This document shows, piece after piece, positions 6,964 to 21,495 of a stretch of 64,000 nucleotides of DNA (positions within the stretch are counted from its first letter, which is position 1; each line of letters starts with the position of its first letter). The notes under the pieces were generated by a model. It saw nothing but the letters and a program-made list of their open reading frames with translations, made no database searches and was not told the DNA's origin. Location of the stretch: assembly GCA_902595825.1 (NCBI GenBank), contig CACJRP010000003.1, positions 40,715 to 104,714 of the forward strand. Direction: 5' to 3'. A program made the position numbers and the translations under genes. The stretch comes from an uncultured Bacteroidota bacterium. GTDB taxonomy: Bacteria > Bacteroidota > Bacteroidia > Flavobacteriales > Flavobacteriaceae.

Positions 6964-8040
6964 TCATTTAACAATTACTTTTTCTTGATGATTAATTGAT
7001 TCTTGGTGTATTGCTTTAAATAATTTTAACACAAATTCTTCAGATAATCCGTGATTTTCGCCATCAAGCACCATTTTACCAAGGATTTCATTCCATCTCT
7101 TATTCTGAAGAACAGCAACATTATTTTTCTTTTTCAACTTTCCTATAGAATCAGAAATTTTCATTCTTTCTCCAAGAATTTGAAGCAGATTTTGGTCAGC
7201 TATATCAATTTGTGTTCTTAAATTATATAATTCATCAACATAGTCTTTTTGTTCGATAGTTGTATTTCGAATCTTTAAATCTTTCATTATTTGAATCAAT
7301 CTATTTGGAGTTACCTGCTGTGCAGCATCACTCCACGCATTATCTGGATCTGTATGGCTTTCAATCATCAACCCATCAAAATTCAGATCCAATGCCATTT
7401 GACTAAGATCGAAAATTAGGTCTCTTCGTCCTGAAATATGAGACGGATCACAAATAATTGGAACATCAGGAAACTTATTTTTTGCTTCAATAGCAATTTG
7501 CCATTCTGGATTATTTCTATACTTCGATTTTCCTTGAGATGAAAAACCTCTATGAATAAGCCCTAATCTACTAATGTCTGCAGACTGAAGTCTTTCAACA
7601 GCACCCAGCCATAATGATAGATCAGGATTAACAGGATTTTTTACAAGAACTATTTTTTCTGTACCATTTAACGAATCGGCTATTTCTTGAACAATAAAAG
7701 GGCTAACTGTTGATCTAGCACCAATCCATAATACATCTATATCGTGTTCTAGTGCCAATTTTACGTGATCTTTGTTCGCTACCTCAGTAGCTGTTAAAAG
7801 CCCCGTTTCTTTTTTAACTCTTTGAAGCCATTTTAAACCTATGGAACCAACACCTTCAAAATTACCAGGTCTTGTTCTCGGTTTCCAAATTCCAGCCCTA
7901 AAGACTGTAACGTCTGTTTCCTTTAATTGATGAGCTATCTTTAAAACCTGTTGCTCGGTCTCAGCGCTGCAAGGGCCCGCAATAACAAGCGGATGAGATA
8001 AATTAAATTTTTCTAACCAGTCGTTTGTTTTTCTTTCCAT
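6964..8040 (-). CDS. Bifunctional 3-deoxy-7-phosphoheptulonate synthase / chorismate mutase
   Basis: 358 aa; N-terminal VIAGPCSAETEQQ...FRAGIWKPRTRPGNFEGVG (DAHP synthase); C-terminal LYNLRTQIDIADQNLLQILGERMKISDSIGKLKKKNNV (AroQ chorismate mutase). Confidence 0.93.
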   Translation of the reverse strand: MERKTNDWLEKFNLSHPLVIAGPCSAETEQQVLKIAHQLKETDVTVFRAGIWKPRTRPGNFEGVGSIGLKWLQRVKKETGLLTATEVANKDHVKLALEHDIDVLWIGARSTVSPFIVQEIADSLNGTEKIVLVKNPVNPDLSLWLGAVERLQSADISRLGLIHRGFSSQGKSKYRNNPEWQIAIEAKNKFPDVPIICDPSHISGRRDLIFDLSQMALDLNFDGLMIESHTDPDNAWSDAAQQVTPNRLIQIMKDLKIRNTTIEQKDYVDELYNLRTQIDIADQNLLQILGERMKISDSIGKLKKKNNVAVLQNKRWNEILGKMVLDGENHGLSEEFVLKLFKAIHQESINHQEKVIVK

Positions 8041-8046
8041 TTTGAT

Positions 8047-8904
8047 TTAATTTTTAGGTTTAATTGTATCAAGTATTTTCTTTAATTTATTTGTTTTAAT
8101 CATTTGATCTTTTAAATCAATATAATTTTCATTTTTAATTTTCAACTCAAATTGTTTAAGATTATCAATATATGCTTTCAAAATTTTAAGTATATTTTTT
8201 CTATTATCTTTAAAAATAGAAGACCACATTTCCGGTGAACTTTTTGCCAATCTTACAGTGGACTCAAATCCACTTCCGGCAAAATCCAGTATATTTTGAT
8301 TATTATTTTCGTACTCCATAACTGTCTTTCCAAGCATGAAAGAACTTATATGAGACAAATGTGAAACTATTGCCATTTTTATATCGTGCTCTTCTGGGTC
8401 AATATATCTAATTTTCATCCCCATCAAATTAAAAATTGATTCAGCCCATTGGAGTAAATCAGGTCTTGTCTTATTTTTCTCACAAAGAATCTGAATTTTT
8501 CCATTGAAGAGATTTTCTATACTTGCCTCAGGGCCAGAAAGTTCGTTGCCTGCTATTGGATGAGTGGCTAGAAATTGATCTCTTTTAGAATGTTTTTCCA
8601 CAGACTTGCACAAACTAAATTTTGTTGAACCAACATCCCATACTAGAGCATCTTTATTCAAATTATCAAGAATTAAAGGTAAAATTTTCAAACTTTCACT
8701 TACAGGAACAGATAAAATAACCCTATCAGCGATACTTAAATTTTCTAAATTATCGATAATATCAATCACCCCAATATCCTTTGCATGTTTAACTCTTGAT
8801 TCATTTTTATCAATTCCGTGTATTTGAATATTATCTAAAAGATTCCTTAAATCTTTCGACATAGAACCTCCTATTAAACCGGTTCCAATTAAAAACAATT
8901 TCAT
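8047..8904 (-). CDS. tyrA: Prephenate dehydrogenase (start placed at MKLFLIGTGLIGGSM)
   Basis: Rossmann motif IGTGLIGGSM at the start; ATHPIAGNELSGPEAS. The ORF track extends 16 codons into the upstream aminotransferase gene. Confidence 0.9.
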   Translation of the reverse strand: MKLFLIGTGLIGGSMSKDLRNLLDNIQIHGIDKNESRVKHAKDIGVIDIIDNLENLSIADRVILSVPVSESLKILPLILDNLNKDALVWDVGSTKFSLCKSVEKHSKRDQFLATHPIAGNELSGPEASIENLFNGKIQILCEKNKTRPDLLQWAESIFNLMGMKIRYIDPEEHDIKMAIVSHLSHISSFMLGKTVMEYENNNQNILDFAGSGFESTVRLAKSSPEMWSSIFKDNRKNILKILKAYIDNLKQFELKIKNENYIDLKDQMIKTNKLKKILDTIKPKN

Positions 8905-10049
8905 GATTTCAATCTTTTTAGAACTTGATTCATTTTTCTTGTATCTGTACATAAAGAAATCCTAACATATCCTTCACCTTGAGATCCAAATATTGATCCA
9001 GGAGATATAAAAAAATTATATTTATCCAATAAATGGTCAATAAATTCCTCAGATTTGAGAGAATCATCTAACATTTTACACCATATAAACATACCAACAC
9101 CATTTTTAGAATAAGAAAGATTTAGTTCGCTTGCAATTTCTTCTGCTAATTTTCTTCTTTTATAATACTCTTTATTAAGAGTTTCAAACCATTTTTGACT
9201 ACTAGCTAGGGCTTTTATTGCCCCATGCTGAACACAATAAAACATACCTGAATCAAAATTTGATTTTACTTTTAACACAGCATCTATGAACTTTGACTGA
9301 CCTACCATCATACCAACTCTCCATCCAGCCATATTAAACGATTTACTCAGTGAATTCAATTCTATAGCAACTCTTTTTGAGTTTTTTAATGATAAAATAC
9401 TCCTAGGTTTTTTATTTAAAATAAAACTATATGGATTATCATTTATTAAAATGATATCATTTTTCTTTGCCCAAGAAATTAGCTCATTTAATTTTTTTTC
9501 ACAAAAATCTGCGCCAGTTGGCATATGGGGATAATTTATCCACATAAGTTTGATGTTTTTTGTGTTTAAAGAATTTAAATCAACCATTTTTGGATACCAA
9601 TTATTTTCCTCTGACAAACTATAATAAAATGTCTCTGCACCCAATAATTTTGTGACCGCGGCGTATGTGGGATATCCTGGATTTGGAATTAACACACCAT
9701 CACCCTTATTAAGAAAAGCCATAGAAATGTGCATTACTCCCTCCTTTGATCCCATTAGGGGTAAAATTTCATTGTGGGGATTTATTTCAACACCATATTG
9801 TTTATAATAAAAACTTGAAATAGCCTCCCTAAGTTCCGGTAGGCCGACATAGCTTTGGTACATACTCGATCTCTGATGATCAATGCTTTCAGACAAAGCT
9901 TGTTTTACTTCTAAACTAGGCGATAAATCAGGACTTCCAATGGCCATATTGATTATAGGCCTTCCAGAAGAAATATAACTATTTATTTCTCTCATTTTTT
10001 TTGAGAAATAATATTCATCCACGTATTTTAATCTTTCGGCTGTAAACAT
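8901..10049 (-). CDS. Class I/II aminotransferase in aromatic amino acid operon
   Basis: 382 aa; NMAIGSPDLSPSLEVKQAL, NYPHMPTGA, NSLSKSFNMAGWRVGMM. Confidence 0.9.
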   Translation of the reverse strand: MFTAERLKYVDEYYFSKKMREINSYISSGRPIINMAIGSPDLSPSLEVKQALSESIDHQRSSMYQSYVGLPELREAISSFYYKQYGVEINPHNEILPLMGSKEGVMHISMAFLNKGDGVLIPNPGYPTYAAVTKLLGAETFYYSLSEENNWYPKMVDLNSLNTKNIKLMWINYPHMPTGADFCEKKLNELISWAKKNDIILINDNPYSFILNKKPRSILSLKNSKRVAIELNSLSKSFNMAGWRVGMMVGQSKFIDAVLKVKSNFDSGMFYCVQHGAIKALASSQKWFETLNKEYYKRRKLAEEIASELNLSYSKNGVGMFIWCKMLDDSLKSEEFIDHLLDKYNFFISPGSIFGSQGEGYVRISLCTDTRKMNQVLKRLKS

Positions 10050-10870
10050 TAATTTTTATGTTCTAAGTATTGTCCAATTATTTTAAATTCTAAGGCCATG
10101 ATTTTAAGGATTGAGACCGCTTTTTGAAAAAAATCTATTTTTTCAAATTTCACATCTACAAAAAAAGCATACTTACCTGGTGTTTTTATAACCGGTAGGG
10201 ATTGAATCTTAGTAAGGTTTAAAAGACAATCACTTAAAACATTTAATACAGCAGCTAAACTTCCTCTTTGGTGGTCCAAAGTAAACTTAAGGGATGCTTT
10301 GTCATAAGATATTTTTCCAAATGGCTCGAGATTATTCTTTAAAATAGCAAACCTGGTTACATTATTATTAATTGTCTGAATTGACTCAGATAAAACGTTT
10401 AGATTGTAGGTTTTAGCCGCTTCTTTTGATCCTATAGCTGCAACTCCTTTTAATTTCTCTTTTAAAATTAGTTGAGCAACCTTCGCTGTGTCAGTAGCCT
10501 CTACTAATCTGATATGATCATAATCATTAAAAAATTCCTTACATTGTAAAAGAGCCATGGGATGAGAGTGTACCTCTTTAATATCTTCCAATGTCTGATT
10601 TTTGTAACACATCAAATTATGATCAATAGAAAAATTATATTCTCCTATTACATGCATATTATAGTCGTCAATTAAAGCATAATTTGGTAAAATTGATCCT
10701 GCAATAGAATTTTCAAGAGCCATAACTCCTCTTTCAACTTCCTTTTGTTTTAATTTATCAATAATTTCTTGAAAAGTAATACATTCAATCACATCTACTG
10801 TTGGTCCAAAGTAATTTAGAGCAACTATGTGGTGAAAAGAACCTTTGATACCTTGAATAGCTATTTTCAT
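10049..10870 (-). CDS. pheA: Prephenate dehydratase
   Basis: 273 aa; MKIAIQGIKGSFHHIVAL, RGVMALENSIAGSILPNYAL, NNVTRFAIL, ACT domain DHQRGSLAAVLNVL...LTKIQSLPV. Confidence 0.94.
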   Translation of the reverse strand: MKIAIQGIKGSFHHIVALNYFGPTVDVIECITFQEIIDKLKQKEVERGVMALENSIAGSILPNYALIDDYNMHVIGEYNFSIDHNLMCYKNQTLEDIKEVHSHPMALLQCKEFFNDYDHIRLVEATDTAKVAQLILKEKLKGVAAIGSKEAAKTYNLNVLSESIQTINNNVTRFAILKNNLEPFGKISYDKASLKFTLDHQRGSLAAVLNVLSDCLLNLTKIQSLPVIKTPGKYAFFVDVKFEKIDFFQKAVSILKIMALEFKIIGQYLEHKN

Positions 10871-10889
10871 TTCATTTATTAAAAAAAAA

Positions 10890-10909
10890 AGTCCTGAAAA
10901 TTCAGGACT
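10890..10909 (-). terminator. Attenuator terminator hairpin upstream of pheA
   Basis: Minus strand AGTCCTGAA-TT-TTCAGGACT followed by about 10 T, ending about 10 nt before the pheA ATG. Confidence 0.9.
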
Positions 10910-10940
10910 ATTATTTGCTTAACAACTGTATACTATAGCC

Positions 10941-11000
10941 CTACAAATTATTAAAATAAAAGTAGAGATAGTAAGAAGTAGTCGTAGTAATTGTTCTCAT
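10941..11000 (-). CDS. Leader peptide for aromatic amino acid attenuation, MRTITTTTSYYLYFYFNNL*
   Basis: Minus-strand ATG AGA ACA ATT ACT ACG ACT ACT TCT TAC TAT CTC TAC TTT TAT TTT AAT AAT TTG TAG; six of seven consecutive codons (YYLYFYF) are Tyr/Phe; precedes terminator and pheA. Confidence 0.9.
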   Translation of the reverse strand: MRTITTTTSYYLYFYFNNL

Positions 11001-11100
11001 TTAAGCTGCAAATCTAATATCCTGAGAGATAAAAACAAAATATTTAATATGTTAATTGAATAACAATTATTAAATTATATTTTAAAATTATAATATAGTC

Positions 11101-12708
11101 ATGTCCAATCTAAAACTAAAAATAACTTTAATATTATCTTTTTTTGTATTTAATAGCTGTCAAAAAAAAACCGAAACAGAAGATTTAAATGACTTTATCT
11201 ATTTAGAATCCACTATCGAAAGTCTAATTAATGATTATAAAAATGGGGATATAAAAGCTGTAGAGGTTATAAAAGAATATATAGACAGAATTAAAAAAAT
11301 TGATATAGCTGGTCCTAATCTTAGGTCTATTATACAAATCAATCCCGATGCCGTTAAAATTGCAACCGAACTTGATAATATAGTAGCTAAAGGTGAGTTG
11401 AAGGGTCCTTTACATGGGATACCTGTAATTTTGAAAGATAATATCGACACTGGCGATAAAATGAATACAACAGCAGGTTCAAGAGCTTTGATTAATTCAA
11501 AAGCAAATAAGGACGCATTTATAGTAAAAAAACTGAGAGAGTCAGGCGCGATCATATTAGGAAAAGCAAATTTAAGCGAATGGGCAAATTTTCGAGGTCA
11601 AAATTCAACAAGTGGATGGAGTGGTGTTAACGGTCAAACCAAAAACCCTTATGTATTAACAAGAAATCCCTGTGGCTCAAGCTCTGGGTCCGGAGTTTCA
11701 GTCTCAGCTAATTTAACCGTTTTAGCTGTTGGAACTGAAACTAATGGTTCAATCGTGTGTCCATCAAATGCCAATGGAATAGTAGGAATAAAACCTACGG
11801 TTGGGCTTATTAGTAGAACAGGAATTATTCCTATCTCATTTACTCAAGATACTTCTGGTCCAATGGCAAGAACTCTAACTGATGCAGTTATAGCACTCAA
11901 TGCAATGAAAGGTGAAGACCCCTTGGATTCCAAAACATTGTACATCCCTAATAAAAATTTAGACTACACAAAATTTTTGAGACAAGGAGGGATAAAAAAT
12001 AAAAGGATTGGAGTATACAATTTACCACTAGGAAATAAATCCAGAAGGAAAGGATATAATGCCGATGTTGACAGTTTATTTAAAAAATCAATTAAATTAA
12101 TTCGTTCACTGGGTGCAGAAATTATCGAGATAGATACAATAAATCATAGAGATAATGGAATCCATTCCTTTAACGTAATGCTTCATGAGTATAAAGATGG
12201 ATTAAACAAATATTTTAAAAATTTAAGAAATGATTCTCAAATAAAGAATTTAGAAGACTTAATTGAATTCAATGAAAAAGATACAATTGAACTTAAATAT
12301 TTTAATCAGGCATATTTAAAACTAGCAAATGAGACAGGTGGGATGAAAAGTGATAAATATAAAAATTCTCTTTTGTTACTTAATAAATACAGTAAAGAAG
12401 ATGGTATTGACAGGGTAATGAACGAACATAATCTAGACGCAATTATATCTCCAACAGGTAGCCCTGCTTGGAGTTCAGATCTTTTAAATGGTGACAATTA
12501 TCATATTGGAAGCTCTTCCCCTGCAGCTCGAGCTGGCTATCCAAATATCACAATTCCTATGGGGAATATTCATGGACTTCCAGTTGGAATTTCATTTTTT
12601 GGTAGGGCTTGGAGTGAAAGTAAACTAATTGAAATCGCATTTGATTTCGAACAAGTTTCAAAAGCAAGGATTATTCCGAATTTCAAATTAAATGATGAAG
12701 ATCTTTAG
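11101..12708 (+). CDS. Amidase signature family protein, probable lipoprotein
   Basis: 535 aa; lipobox FVFNSC; LHGIPVILKDNIDT, NPCGSSSGSGVSVSANL..GTETNGSIVCPSNANGIVGIKPT. Confidence 0.92.
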   Translation: MSNLKLKITLILSFFVFNSCQKKTETEDLNDFIYLESTIESLINDYKNGDIKAVEVIKEYIDRIKKIDIAGPNLRSIIQINPDAVKIATELDNIVAKGELKGPLHGIPVILKDNIDTGDKMNTTAGSRALINSKANKDAFIVKKLRESGAIILGKANLSEWANFRGQNSTSGWSGVNGQTKNPYVLTRNPCGSSSGSGVSVSANLTVLAVGTETNGSIVCPSNANGIVGIKPTVGLISRTGIIPISFTQDTSGPMARTLTDAVIALNAMKGEDPLDSKTLYIPNKNLDYTKFLRQGGIKNKRIGVYNLPLGNKSRRKGYNADVDSLFKKSIKLIRSLGAEIIEIDTINHRDNGIHSFNVMLHEYKDGLNKYFKNLRNDSQIKNLEDLIEFNEKDTIELKYFNQAYLKLANETGGMKSDKYKNSLLLLNKYSKEDGIDRVMNEHNLDAIISPTGSPAWSSDLLNGDNYHIGSSSPAARAGYPNITIPMGNIHGLPVGISFFGRAWSESKLIEIAFDFEQVSKARIIPNFKLNDEDL

Positions 12709-12757: not shown

Positions 12758-13714
12758 TTAAAAAACAGATTCTGCAATACATTTAATATTATCTGAACGT
12801 CCCATAGTATAATAATGAAGAAAAGGAACTCCAGCTTTTTTTAGTTCCTTACTTTGTTCAATACACCATTCAATACCAACTTGTCTAATCTGATCGTTAC
12901 TTTTACATTTTATAACTGATTTTATTAAGTCATCTGGTAGGTCAACATAAAATCTTTGTGGAAGAACGTTTAGTTGTTTTTTTGTTGAAATTGGTTTTAA
13001 CCCAGGAATTATTGGAACGTTGATTTCATTTTCTAAACATTTTTTTTGAAAGTCAAAAAACTTTTGGTTATCAAAAAACATCTGAGTGACGATGTAATGG
13101 GCGCCTGCATCAATCTTTTTCTTCAAAAAATGTATATCACTGTCAAAACTTGGAGCCTCAATGTGTTTTTCTGGATAACCTGAAACTCCAATACAAAAGT
13201 TTGTTTTTGCGTTATTTTGAATTTCTTCGTCTAAATATTTTCCTTTATTAAGATCATCAATTTGTTTAACAAGATCACTTGCGAAAGAGTTTCCATCAAC
13301 ACTTGGCTTGAAATATACTTCAGATTTTAATGAATCCCCTCTAAGAGCTACAATATTTTCAATTCCTAAGAAATCTAAATCTATAAGTAGATTTTCTGTT
13401 TCTTCTTTTGAGAAACCTCCACAAAGAACATGTGGAACTGCATCTACATTATATTTATTTTGGAGCGCAGCACATATTCCTACCGTTCCTGGTCTTTTTC
13501 TTATGACATGTTTTTGCAATAAACCGTTATCTAATTCTTTATAGACATACTCTTCTCTATGATACGTAACATCAATAAAAGGTGGTTTAAACTCCATAAG
13601 TGGATCAATTGCATCAAAAATCGATTCAAGATTTTGTCCTTTTAAAGGCGGCAAAATCTCGAAAGTAAATTGAGATGTATTTTTCTTATCTTTAAAATGA
13701 TCTATAATTTTCAT
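12758..13714 (-). CDS. metF: Methylenetetrahydrofolate reductase
   Basis: 318 aa; FEILPPLKGQN, VLCGGFSKEETENLLIDLDFLGIENIVALRGD, AGAHYIVTQMFFD. Confidence 0.95.
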   Translation of the reverse strand: MKIIDHFKDKKNTSQFTFEILPPLKGQNLESIFDAIDPLMEFKPPFIDVTYHREEYVYKELDNGLLQKHVIRKRPGTVGICAALQNKYNVDAVPHVLCGGFSKEETENLLIDLDFLGIENIVALRGDSLKSEVYFKPSVDGNSFASDLVKQIDDLNKGKYLDEEIQNNAKTNFCIGVSGYPEKHIEAPSFDSDIHFLKKKIDAGAHYIVTQMFFDNQKFFDFQKKCLENEINVPIIPGLKPISTKKQLNVLPQRFYVDLPDDLIKSVIKCKSNDQIRQVGIEWCIEQSKELKKAGVPFLHYYTMGRSDNIKCIAESVF

Positions 13715-13717
13715 AGT

Positions 13718-16405
13718 TTAAAAGTTTAAATTTGGTTTTAACCACTTAATAGCACTTTCAAGAGTTATTTTTTTTCTATTTGCATAATCCTGTACTTGGT
13801 CTTTAGAAATTTTCCCAACTCCGAAATATTTTGCACTGGGATTTGCAAAATAATATCCTGAAACAGAGGCTGCAGGCCACATCGCCAGACTTTCTGTCAA
13901 TGAAACACCAATATTTTTTTCAACATTAAGAATATTCCAAATTGTTTGTTTCTCTAAATGATCTGGACATGCAGGATATCCTGGAGCAGGTCTAATGCCA
14001 GTGTATTTTTCTTTAATTAGATCGTCATTGTTGAATTTCTCGTCCGGTGAATACCCCCAATATTTAGTTCTCACAATTTTGTGTAGATATTCTGCATAGG
14101 CTTCTGCCAATCTATCGGCTAAAGCTTTCACCATTATAGAATTATAATCATCATTTTTATTTTCATAGTGTTTGGATAGTTTGTCTGCTCCGATACCTGT
14201 AGTAACGCAAAAAATACCTATGTAATCGGAATATCCAGTATTTTTAGGAGCAATATAATCAGATAGTGCCAAGTTTGGTTTATCATTTCTTTTCATTAGC
14301 TGTTGCCTTAGTGTATAAAAAGTTCCCAAAAGTGTTTTTTTATCATTTGAAGAATATACCTCAATATCGTCATCTACAGTGTTAGCGGGAAATAACCCAA
14401 AAATTGATTTTGCTTTAAGAGATTTATTTTTTAAAATTTTTTGAAGCAACTGATTAGCATCAGAAAATAATTCTTTGGCTTGTTGACCAACAATTTTATC
14501 TTCTAATATTTCTGGATATCGACCATGTAAATCCCAAGATCTAAAAAAGGGACTCCAATCAATATATTCAATTAATTCTTCCAAATTTTGATTTTTTGTA
14601 ATTGTGATTCCCCTGTTCTTAGGTATACTAGGTTTAAACTCTTCCCAATTTAATTTTATTTTATTTTTCCTGGCCGATTTTATGTTTATAAGTTCTTTTT
14701 TAACTTGCCTTTGTAAAAATTTATTTCGGAAATCTTCGTATTCTTTCCTTATTGTTTGTTTATAAACAATTGATGTTTTTTTATTTAATAAACTCCCCGC
14801 CACTGTAACTGCTCTAGATGCATCATTTACGTGTACAACTGGAGTGTTAAGTTCTGGGGCTATTTTGACTGCCGTATGTGCTTTGGAAGTTGTAGCTCCT
14901 CCTATTAATAGAGGAATATTTATTTTCTGTCTTTTTAGCTCCTGAGCTATAAAAATCATTTCATCCAAAGATGGTGTGATTAATCCAGATAATCCGATGA
15001 GATCAACATTTTCATCTTTTGCTGTTTTTAAAATTTTTTCTGGTGGTACCATGACTCCCAAATCTATTATTTCAAAATTATTACAGCCTAAAACAACACT
15101 AACAATATTTTTTCCAATATCATGTACATCTCCTTTAACCGTTGCCATTAGAATTTTGCCTGCAACTTTTTGTTTTCCACTTTCTTTTCCTGACTCAATG
15201 TAAGGTAACAGGTATGAAACTGCGTTTTTCATAACTCTTGCGGATTTAACAACTTGTGGTAAAAACATTTTACCAGACCCAAACAAATCTCCAACCACAT
15301 TCATTCCATTCATTAAAAAGACTTCAATGACCTCTATCGGCTTATTAACAATTTTTCTTGCCTCTTCAACATCATTATGTATAAATTCTTCTATACCTTT
15401 TACTAAAGAATGAGTAATTCTACCTTGTAAATCTAATTTTCTCCAGGACTTTTCTTTGAGTTTGGTTGTCTTATTTTCATCAGAAAGGTCTTCAGCAAAT
15501 TTGAGCAACCTTTGAGTTGCATCATCTCTTCGATTTAATAAAACATCCTCAATATGAAGAAGTAAATTCTTAGGTATTTCGTCATAGACTTCAAGCATTT
15601 CTGGATTTACAATACCCATGTTCATCCCATTTTTAATTCCATGATATAAAAATGCAGAGTGCATTGCTTCCCTGACTAAGTTATTACCTCGAAAAGAAAA
15701 AGAAACATTGCTAACGCCTCCACTGACACTTGCATAAGGTAAATTTTTTCTTATCCATTTGGCTGACTTAAAAAAATCTACAGCATTTGTCTTATGCTCA
15801 TCCATCCCTGTTGCAACAGGAAAAATATTTGGGTCAAAAATGATGTCTTGAGGAGGAAAATGAACTTTTTTTGTTAAAATTTTGTATGCTCTTTCACATA
15901 TTTCAATTCTCCTCAAATAATTATCTGCTTGTCCATTTTCATCAAATGCCATAATAACTACTGCAGCACCAAATCTTCTGATCTTTACAGCATTTTCAAT
16001 AAATTTCTTTTCACCCTCTTTTAGACTTATAGAGTTCACTACGCACTTACCTTGAACCAGTTTTAATCCAGCCTCTACAACCTCCCACTTTGAGGAATCG
16101 ATCATAATTGGAATTCTAGAAATATCAGGTTCTGAAACAATTAAATTTAAAAATTTTGTCATTGCCTCAACTCCATCAATCATACCTTCATCCATGTTGA
16201 CATCCAAAATTTGTGCTCCCCCTTCAACTTGATCCCTTGCAACTTCAACTGCAGATTTAAAATCATCCTCTTTGATATATTTTAAAAATTTTCTAGATCC
16301 AGTGACATTTGTCCTTTCCCCAATATTTACAAAATTTGATTCTGGAGTTATAATCAGAGGTTCTAGACCAGATAACTTTAGATACTTATCCATTGTCGAA
16401 TTCAA
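13718..16405 (-). CDS. metH: Methionine synthase, pterin / cobalamin-binding / activation domains (split MetH)
   Basis: 895 aa; [64 protein letters not shown]. Confidence 0.95.
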
Positions 16406-17385
16406 ATTTTTCTTGGTTTATAATTTCTAGCAATTTCAGCTATTAATCTTATGTGTTCAGGTTTTGTTCCACAACAACCTCCAACTATATTAATTATATT
16501 TTCTTTTAAATAATTTTCAATAAGCTCTGACATTTCAGTTGCTGTTTGGTCATAAGCGCCAAAGGCATTTGGAAGACCTGCATTTGGATGTACAGAAGTG
16601 TAGGTGTTCGTAATATTTGATAATCTCTTTACATAAGGTAAGAGTTGGTCAGCTCCTAATGCACAATTAAATCCTATACTTAAAAGTGGGATATGTGAAA
16701 TTGAAATCACAAATGCTTCCACAGTTTGACCCGACAAGGTTCTTCCACTTGCATCCGTAATTGTACCGCTAACCATTACTGGAATATCTAATTTTTTTTC
16801 GCTTTTTATTTTATCAATTGCAAATAGAGCCGCTTTAGCATTTAAAGTGTCAAAAATAGTTTCTACAAACAAAATATCAACACCACCGTCGATTAAACCT
16901 AAAACCTGATCTGAATAGCAGTTTACTAAATTATCAAATGATATAGCCCTGTATCCAGGATCATTAACATCTGGAGATAAACTAGCTGTTCTATTGGTTG
17001 GTCCAATTGAACCGGCAACAAATACCTCAGATTTTTTTGTGCTATTACAAAACTCATCTTTTACCTCTTTAGCAATTTTTGCACCGGCATGATTAAAATC
17101 ATACGCGTATTTTTCCATTCCGTAGTCTGCGAGACTTATAGATGTAGAATTAAAAGTATTTGTCTCTATTATATCAGCTCCCGCCTCTAAATAATCTCTA
17201 TGTATAGATTTAATTAAATCTGGCATGGTTATGTTGAGCAGGTCATTATTTCCTTTCAATGGCTCTTTATGATTAACAAATCTTTTTCCTCTAAAGTCAT
17301 TTTCATCAAGAGAGTGTTCTTGAATCATAGTACCCATTGGTCCGTCTAAAATCATTATTCTTTCATTAAGGATTTTTTCTATCAT
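16402..17385 (-). CDS. metH: Methionine synthase, homocysteine S-methyltransferase module (split MetH)
   Basis: 327 aa; [35 protein letters not shown] zinc motif. Confidence 0.94.
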
Positions 17386-20129: not shown

Positions 20130-21386
20130 TTATTTATTTAAGTAATCATTTATTTTTTTTACATAATTTAAATTTTCCCAAGTAAATAAATCCACTTTGT
20201 GATTTACTTCTTGATTATTTTTATTTAGAAAAATTTTATTAATTTTTTTATGTTCTCTTCCCATATGACCGTAAGATGAGGTTTCTAAGTAGATAGGATT
20301 TCTTAGATCTAGATTTCTTTCAATTGAGTAAGGCCTCAAATCAAAAATTTTATAGATCATTTCAGTTATTTCTGAATTAGTAAGTTTAATCTTTGAAGTT
20401 CCAAAAGTATTTACATTAATTGAAGTAGGTTCTGCAATTCCAATGGCATAACTCAATTGGACAAGTATTTTACTGGCAATTCCTGCAGCAACTAAATTCT
20501 TTGCTATATGCCTGGCAGCATAAGCTGCACTTCTATCAACTTTGCTGGGATCTTTACCGCTAAACGCACCTCCTCCATGTGCTCCCCATCCTCCGTATGT
20601 ATCGACGATTATTTTCCTTCCCGTAAGACCAGTATCTCCGTGAGGCCCGCCTATAACAAATTTACCTGTGGGATTCACAATTATTTTTGTATTGCCGTTA
20701 TAGAGAGATCTTATATTTTGTTGCTCATTCTCAAACACACGAGGTAATAGAATTTCGACAACATCCTTTTTGATTTTGTTAACCATTTTCTTATCGTTTT
20801 TTTCAAAAGGATCATGTTGTGTTGAAATTAATATTGTATCGATCGAGAGAGGATTTCCGTTTTTATCATATTCTACCGTTACTTGAGATTTAGAATCTGG
20901 ACGTAAGTATTCAATTAGACTTCCCTGCCTTCTTAAAACAGACAATTCTCTTAGAATTTTGTGTGATAAATCTAGAGTTAAAGGAATCAAGTTTTCCGTT
21001 TCATCAGTTGCATAGCCAAACATAATCCCTTGGTCTCCAGCCCCTTGATTTTCTTTCACCCTTTTTTCAACACCCCTATTAATGTCTTCTGACTGAGAAT
21101 GAATTAAAGAAGTTACTTCACATTCATTTGCGCTAAATTTAATCTTAGAATCAGTATATCCAATTTTCTCAATTGTTTCTCTTACAATTTTCTCAATATT
21201 TATTTGAGCAGAAGATTTTACCTCACCTGCAACAATTACATTATTTGTTGTTACAAGCGTCTCACAGGCCACTTTACTCTCTGGGTCAAAAGCTAAATAA
21301 TTATCCAGAATCGCGTCACTAATTTGATCAGATACTTTATCGGGATGTCCTTCACTAACAGACTCAGAGGTAAAATAGGTATTCAT
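20130..21386 (-). CDS. metK: S-adenosylmethionine synthetase (start placed at [18 protein letters not shown])
   Basis: [79 protein letters not shown]. Confidence 0.96.
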
Positions 21387-21391
21387 TTTAT

Positions 21392-21431
21392 TTGCTTTCA
21401 GGAAGGATTTGAAGATTACTTTTGAAAGCAA
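21392..21431 (-). promoter_or_regulatory. Expression-platform hairpin sequestering the metK translation start region
   Basis: Minus strand TTGCTTTCA-N22-TGAAAGCAA, perfect 9-bp arms, ending 5 nt before the metK ATG. Confidence 0.75.
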
Positions 21432-21432
21432 T

Positions 21433-21484
21433 TCTGCTTTAGCATTTTTTTTTCGAGGTTTGCAATCAGACAAATCCTTCCTCG
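21433..21484 (-). ncRNA. SAM-II-type riboswitch aptamer upstream of metK
   Basis: Minus strand CGAGG-AAGGATTTG-TCTG-ATTGCAAA-CCTCG-AAAAAAAAAT-GCTAAAG-CAGA: P1 CGAGG/CCTCG, loop ATTTG and ATTGCA, tail GCTAAAG, pseudoknot TCTG/CAGA. This order matches the SAM-II architecture and sits in front of the SAM synthetase gene. Confidence 0.82.
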
Positions 21485-21495
21485 TAATTTTTTTG

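Follow-up and report, generated by a model that had tools for sequence, protein, structure and literature searches.

The question raised by the window (the whole stretch of 64,000 nucleotides analysed here) is whether the short segment in front of its aromatic amino acid operon is a switch that a translating ribosome would read. The operon lies on the minus strand and consists of pheA, encoding prephenate dehydratase (10049-10870; PF00800), a class I/II aminotransferase gene (8901-10049), tyrA, encoding prephenate dehydrogenase (8047-8952; NF006307 above cut-off), and a gene for a DAHP synthase-chorismate mutase fusion (6964-8040; PF00793 and PF01817), listed as aroG in the initial annotation. 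It makes both phenylalanine and tyrosine and includes the first enzyme of the common aromatic pathway, and its second to fourth genes are all found downstream of pheA in 78 of 80 named relatives. We consider that a ribosome-mediated transcription attenuator of the trpL/pheL type governs this operon, with a probability of roughly nine in ten. The support for this reading, which the initial annotation had put forward, consists of sequence, conservation, covariation and geometry, and the comparison with relatives supports it strongly through the number of conserved loci, the covarying helices and the spacing of the codon run; leader translation, termination in vivo and the response to starvation are predicted.

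Elsewhere in the window, a SAM-II riboswitch (21429-21489, minus strand; 73.6 bits against a threshold of 44) is located directly 5' of a metK-like ORF (20130-21473, with an internal ATG at about 21386 as the likelier start), which heads a run of methionine genes extending down to about 12758. By eye, two adjacent overlapping ORFs in this run (13718-17385, minus strand) resemble, respectively, the homocysteine methyltransferase portion of methionine synthase MetH and its other portions, and the translations suggest that a metF-like gene (12758-13714) follows them.

Upstream of pheA, the minus strand carries the leader ORF MRTITTTTSYYLYFYFNNL (11000-10941, stop codon included), recognised from its sequence and by comparison with relatives. 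Its start is unambiguous, since an in-frame TAA immediately precedes the ATG, and its codons for the end products of the operon are clustered: codons 10 to 16 (Tyr10-Phe16), the presumed regulatory codons, comprise four Tyr and two Phe, as had been claimed. A putative promoter adjoins the leader ATG, with a -7 box TAGATTTG (11009-11016, minus strand) 8 nt 5' of the ATG and, 19 nt further 5', a -33 element TTTG (11036-11039, minus strand); this TTTG-N19-TAGATTTG arrangement is a consensus match and not proof, the text of PMC9723704 giving TAnnTTTG as the -7 consensus of the Bacteroidetes sigma-A factor. A -7-like box (at least 5 of 6 matches) precedes 59 of the first 65 leaders, at a median of 16 nt 5' of the ATG. 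The 5' UTR of the window leader would thus span only a few nucleotides; among the predicted transcripts of F. johnsoniae, 87% have leaders of over 10 nt (PMC6847099). A promoter between the terminator described below and pheA was considered and ruled out, because the T-tract and the pheA ATG lie just 10 nt apart, and attenuation therefore survives the objection that transcription might start downstream of the terminator.

Between the leader and pheA, the first structural gene, lies an intrinsic terminator, identified by folding and comparison, with the hairpin AGTCCTGAATTTTCAGGACT (10890-10909, minus strand) and a T-tract (10881-10890, minus strand). The hairpin and the T run reaching 10881 had both been described correctly, but not the perfect 9-bp stem: such a stem would leave a 2-nt loop, and the realistic structure has 8 bp and a 4-nt loop. 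The antiterminator stands exactly as the initial annotation placed it, two G-U pairs included, and joins region 2 (UAGGGCUAU, 10943-10935, minus strand) to region 3 (AUAGUCCUG, 10911-10903, minus strand); region 3 also forms the 5' arm of the terminator, so that the two structures are mutually exclusive. A further helix, previously unmentioned, completes the trpL-like set: region 1 (10962-10973, minus strand), which is made of codons spanning the aromatic run and was located by folding and by its conserved 1:2 pairing, pairs with 10944-10939 and 10936-10931 in a protector hairpin that overlaps region 2.

Taken alone, the window locus is only moderately unusual, and is suggestive rather than conclusive. 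The leader region folds with a z-score of -1.98, and the 2:3 helix with a z-score of -1.41 (20 of 200 shuffles equally good), which is not significant for this sequence by itself. Runs of six aromatic codons in seven are about as frequent in this AT-rich genome (55 matches) as those of a reversed-pattern control (50), and the run was dropped as evidence on its own. An ATG-initiated ORF with at least six Phe or Tyr codons in eight arose in 1.7% of shuffles of the leader region, and the combination of a Phe/Tyr ORF with a terminator was found once in the 64-kb window in a scan for leaders of several amino acid kinds. The weakness of the window's own 2:3 helix and the abundance of Phe/Tyr codon runs in such a genome are what could be said for a chance ORF next to a passive 5' UTR hairpin or to the ordinary terminator of an upstream gene. 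The gene on the other side of the leader, an amidase gene at 11101, is divergent, so that the terminator does not serve it, and an upstream-gene terminator was rejected. The attenuator case becomes decisive through conservation in relatives.

For this comparison, pheA homologues were found in relatives and the DNA upstream of them was compared, counting only loci with a located pheA start. At 176 of 187 such loci (167 distinct leaders), a short ATG-initiated ORF carrying a Phe/Tyr run precedes an intrinsic terminator, a proportion that is no unbiased census, as the named loci are by search design the closest relatives. The leader-bearing loci include named Flavobacterium (with leaders of the type MSNNRFYFSNSFYFFFSRS...), Winogradskyella, Maribacter, Arenibacter and others, as well as loci labelled as belonging to the same class yet lying outside the order of the window. 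In the first set, at least five Phe or Tyr codons in eight were found in 94% of the upstream regions, versus 2.9% of their reverse complements and 4.0% of shuffles, and one locus scored as lacking the leader (L014) is truncated by the start of its contig, with the same run visible. Conservation of the element extends over much of the phylum Bacteroidota. Among 35 genomes of more distant members of the phylum, with PheA about 30% identical, no clear case of the leader was seen. With 176 loci conserved and covarying, the chance-ORF explanation is refuted already unless the comparative data are artefactual, and we regard it as extremely improbable.

The competing helices are kept in relatives along with the aromatic codons, and they covary. 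Over 65 loci, the 2:3 helix has a mean linker-shuffle z-score of -3.3, with 62 loci below -1. When pairing partners were permuted across 64 divergent representatives (less than 75% identity), the z-scores were -9.3 for 1:2, -14.4 for 2:3 and -19.3 for 3:4, against -0.7 for a control segment, values that overstate independence because the loci share ancestry. The columns of regions 2, 3 and 4 at the terminator core change jointly (ATA, GTA, GCG, TAT, CGC), and at columns 2-5 both pairings are kept in 64 of 64 cases, a count biased by the placement of region 2 through folding, which the permutation tests lessen and do not remove. A MAFFT alignment of the element was left unused for pair counts since it shifts region 2 of the window's genus by several columns; the counts relied on anchored triples and permutations. 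In three loci from Cryomorphaceae MED-G11 and allies (L120, L122 and L131), the antiterminator appears by eye to be bulged (CAGGA-UAA-CUA versus UAGUCCUG).

A well-conserved structured RNA, with a protector hairpin that sits within the codon run, would also suit a regulator made of RNA only (a riboswitch, a T-box or a protein-bound leader), in which the ORF would be incidental to control of the terminator. The codons argue against it. Over the last six run codons of the first 65 leaders, A stands 16 times at codon position 1, 126 times at position 2 and 3 times at position 3, which is the signature of TTY/TAY coding and not of a U-rich tract. At run position -5, 39 of the 167 leaders carry Trp, 38 Phe and 34 Tyr, an interchange indicating that aromatic coding is kept rather than nucleotides; since two base changes separate TGG from TTT, a nucleotide constraint is hard to invoke for it. 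At the window locus and in 15 relatives, no Rfam family was matched at threshold, and a T-box, riboswitch or known leader family was rejected for the leader on these grounds. At codon -2 of the run, a strong synonymous preference was observed among the first 65 relatives (TTC 40 versus TTT 9), which possibly serves to preserve the 1:2 hairpin.

The geometry of the element bears on the same choice. Measured from the last aromatic codon, region 2 starts at a median of 10 nt (sd 2.3) and the stop codon follows at 3-39 nt (sd 8.7); it is thus the aromatic run, and not the stop codon at which the initial annotation had anchored the antiterminator, to which the spacing is fixed. Given this near-constant distance, selection apparently keeps region 2 roughly half a ribosome footprint past the sensor codons. 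A spacing tied to the codon run speaks further against control by RNA only, which we judge very unlikely, and favours ribosome-mediated attenuation. We modelled the latter with a footprint size assumed on the basis of what is generally known about E. coli ribosomes. In this model, at least 75% of region 2 is free in 165-167 of the 167 leaders for stalls up to the last but one aromatic codon, and in 9 of 167 with the ribosome at the stop codon. The modelled energy of the window antiterminator is -9.5 kcal/mol for stalls at codons 7-15, -8.4 kcal/mol at Phe16 and -2.1 kcal/mol from codon 17 on. Stalling in the run thus frees region 2 and completion of the leader masks it in most members, though the simple geometry does not suit all of them: in about 20 of the 167 leaders, whose stops are distant, the modelled footprint at the stop leaves half or more of region 2 uncovered.

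Under ribosome-mediated attenuation, RNA polymerase would transcribe a leader in which the ORF starts very near the 5' terminus. With charged tRNA-Phe and tRNA-Tyr ample, the ribosome would pass the run, reach the stop codon and cover region 2, upon which the 3:4 terminator would form and transcription would end before pheA. With charged Phe- or Tyr-tRNA scarce, it would stall in the run and leave region 2 free, so that 2:3 would form in place of the terminator and the operon would be transcribed. If the leader were untranslated, region 2 would be sequestered in the 1:2 hairpin, which would favour termination.

Which amino acids such a switch would sense can be addressed through the composition of the 167 distinct leaders. 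It could read one amino acid only, for example Phe, with Tyr, and Trp in relatives, incidental and explained by the one-base difference between TTY and TAY or by the pairing needs of region 1; Phe outnumbers Tyr overall (21.6% versus 14.9% of leader residues) and is the last run codon in 135 of 167 leaders. Against this, Phe and Tyr codons occur together in every one of the 167 leaders, most leaders (125 of 167) have Tyr at run position -3, the window run has four Tyr versus two Phe, and the operon both makes the two products and encodes the enzyme that opens the common pathway, which renders a single-amino-acid switch unlikely. A Trp codon is present in 78 of the 167 leaders, many Flavobacteriaceae leaders among them, within or before the Phe/Tyr run (YYNWFYFFF, for instance; further examples are L008, L016, L045 and L057), and in none of the leaders of the window's genus. 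We lean slightly towards a single attenuator, ancestral to much of Bacteroidia, that would integrate the charging of tRNA-Phe and tRNA-Tyr, and in about half of the lineages of tRNA-Trp, and so set the first step of the aromatic pathway together with both terminal branches; the window's genus and others would have dropped the Trp input and kept the switch.

If this reading is correct, translation-coupled attenuation governs a central aromatic operon in Flavobacteriales and neighbouring orders. Transcription and translation would then be closely coupled in bacteria without Shine-Dalgarno sequences, on a leader whose start nearly coincides with that of the transcript. The catalogue of RNA families would gain one that is widespread and so far unannotated, along with many leader genes that have been overlooked. 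The Phe/Tyr/Trp mixes that occur in nature, with their fixed spacing from run to region 2, would lend themselves to direct tests of how several amino acids are weighed by a single leader.

Among known systems, trpL and pheL of E. coli are ribosome-mediated attenuators with a short leader ORF carrying regulatory codons and with helices 1:2, 2:3 and 3:4. The window element resembles them in its leader ORF with regulatory codons, its three mutually exclusive helices and its terminator before the first biosynthetic gene. It differs in that its codon run mixes Phe and Tyr, plus Trp in about half of the relatives, in that its start codon adjoins a TAnnTTTG promoter of the Bacteroidetes type and lacks a Shine-Dalgarno sequence, and in that its stop codon has no fixed place relative to region 2. 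Leaders for several amino acids are also known, namely thrL (Thr and Ile) and the ilv leaders (Ile, Val and Leu), and like these the window leader would report on more than one end product of a branched pathway; they concern the aspartate and branched-chain families, whereas the window leader would read aromatic amino acids. The Rfam family RF01859 (Phe_leader), which likewise places a leader peptide for Phe in front of a Phe gene, scored 16.7 bits (E 1.7), the threshold being 55, and is no detectable homologue. A 2010 survey by Lopatovskaya and colleagues reportedly belongs to the known work as well. According to the text of PMC2965389, no leader-peptide systems were known in 2010 outside Proteobacteria and Actinobacteria before the Firmicutes case of that paper. 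RF01692 (Bacteroid-trp), a candidate cis-regulatory RNA listed in PMC2864571, comes from Bacteroidetes too and its name suggests trp genes; it has no match at threshold in the window or in the 15 relatives. Closest is a structured 5' element that PMC9723704 reported in 2021 for pheA of F. psychrophilum. It lies upstream of the gene, was described as shared with further genera of the Flavobacteriaceae and as having no Rfam match, and the paper also gives clues for its proposal of leader-peptide attenuation at amino acid operons. This element precedes the same gene in the same bacterial family, so that the window attenuator is not wholly new. The main text of PMC9723704 is without a pheA leader sequence, codon content or competing helices, which its appendix may describe; the distinctive points of the present element are the mixed aromatic codon run and the class-wide spread.
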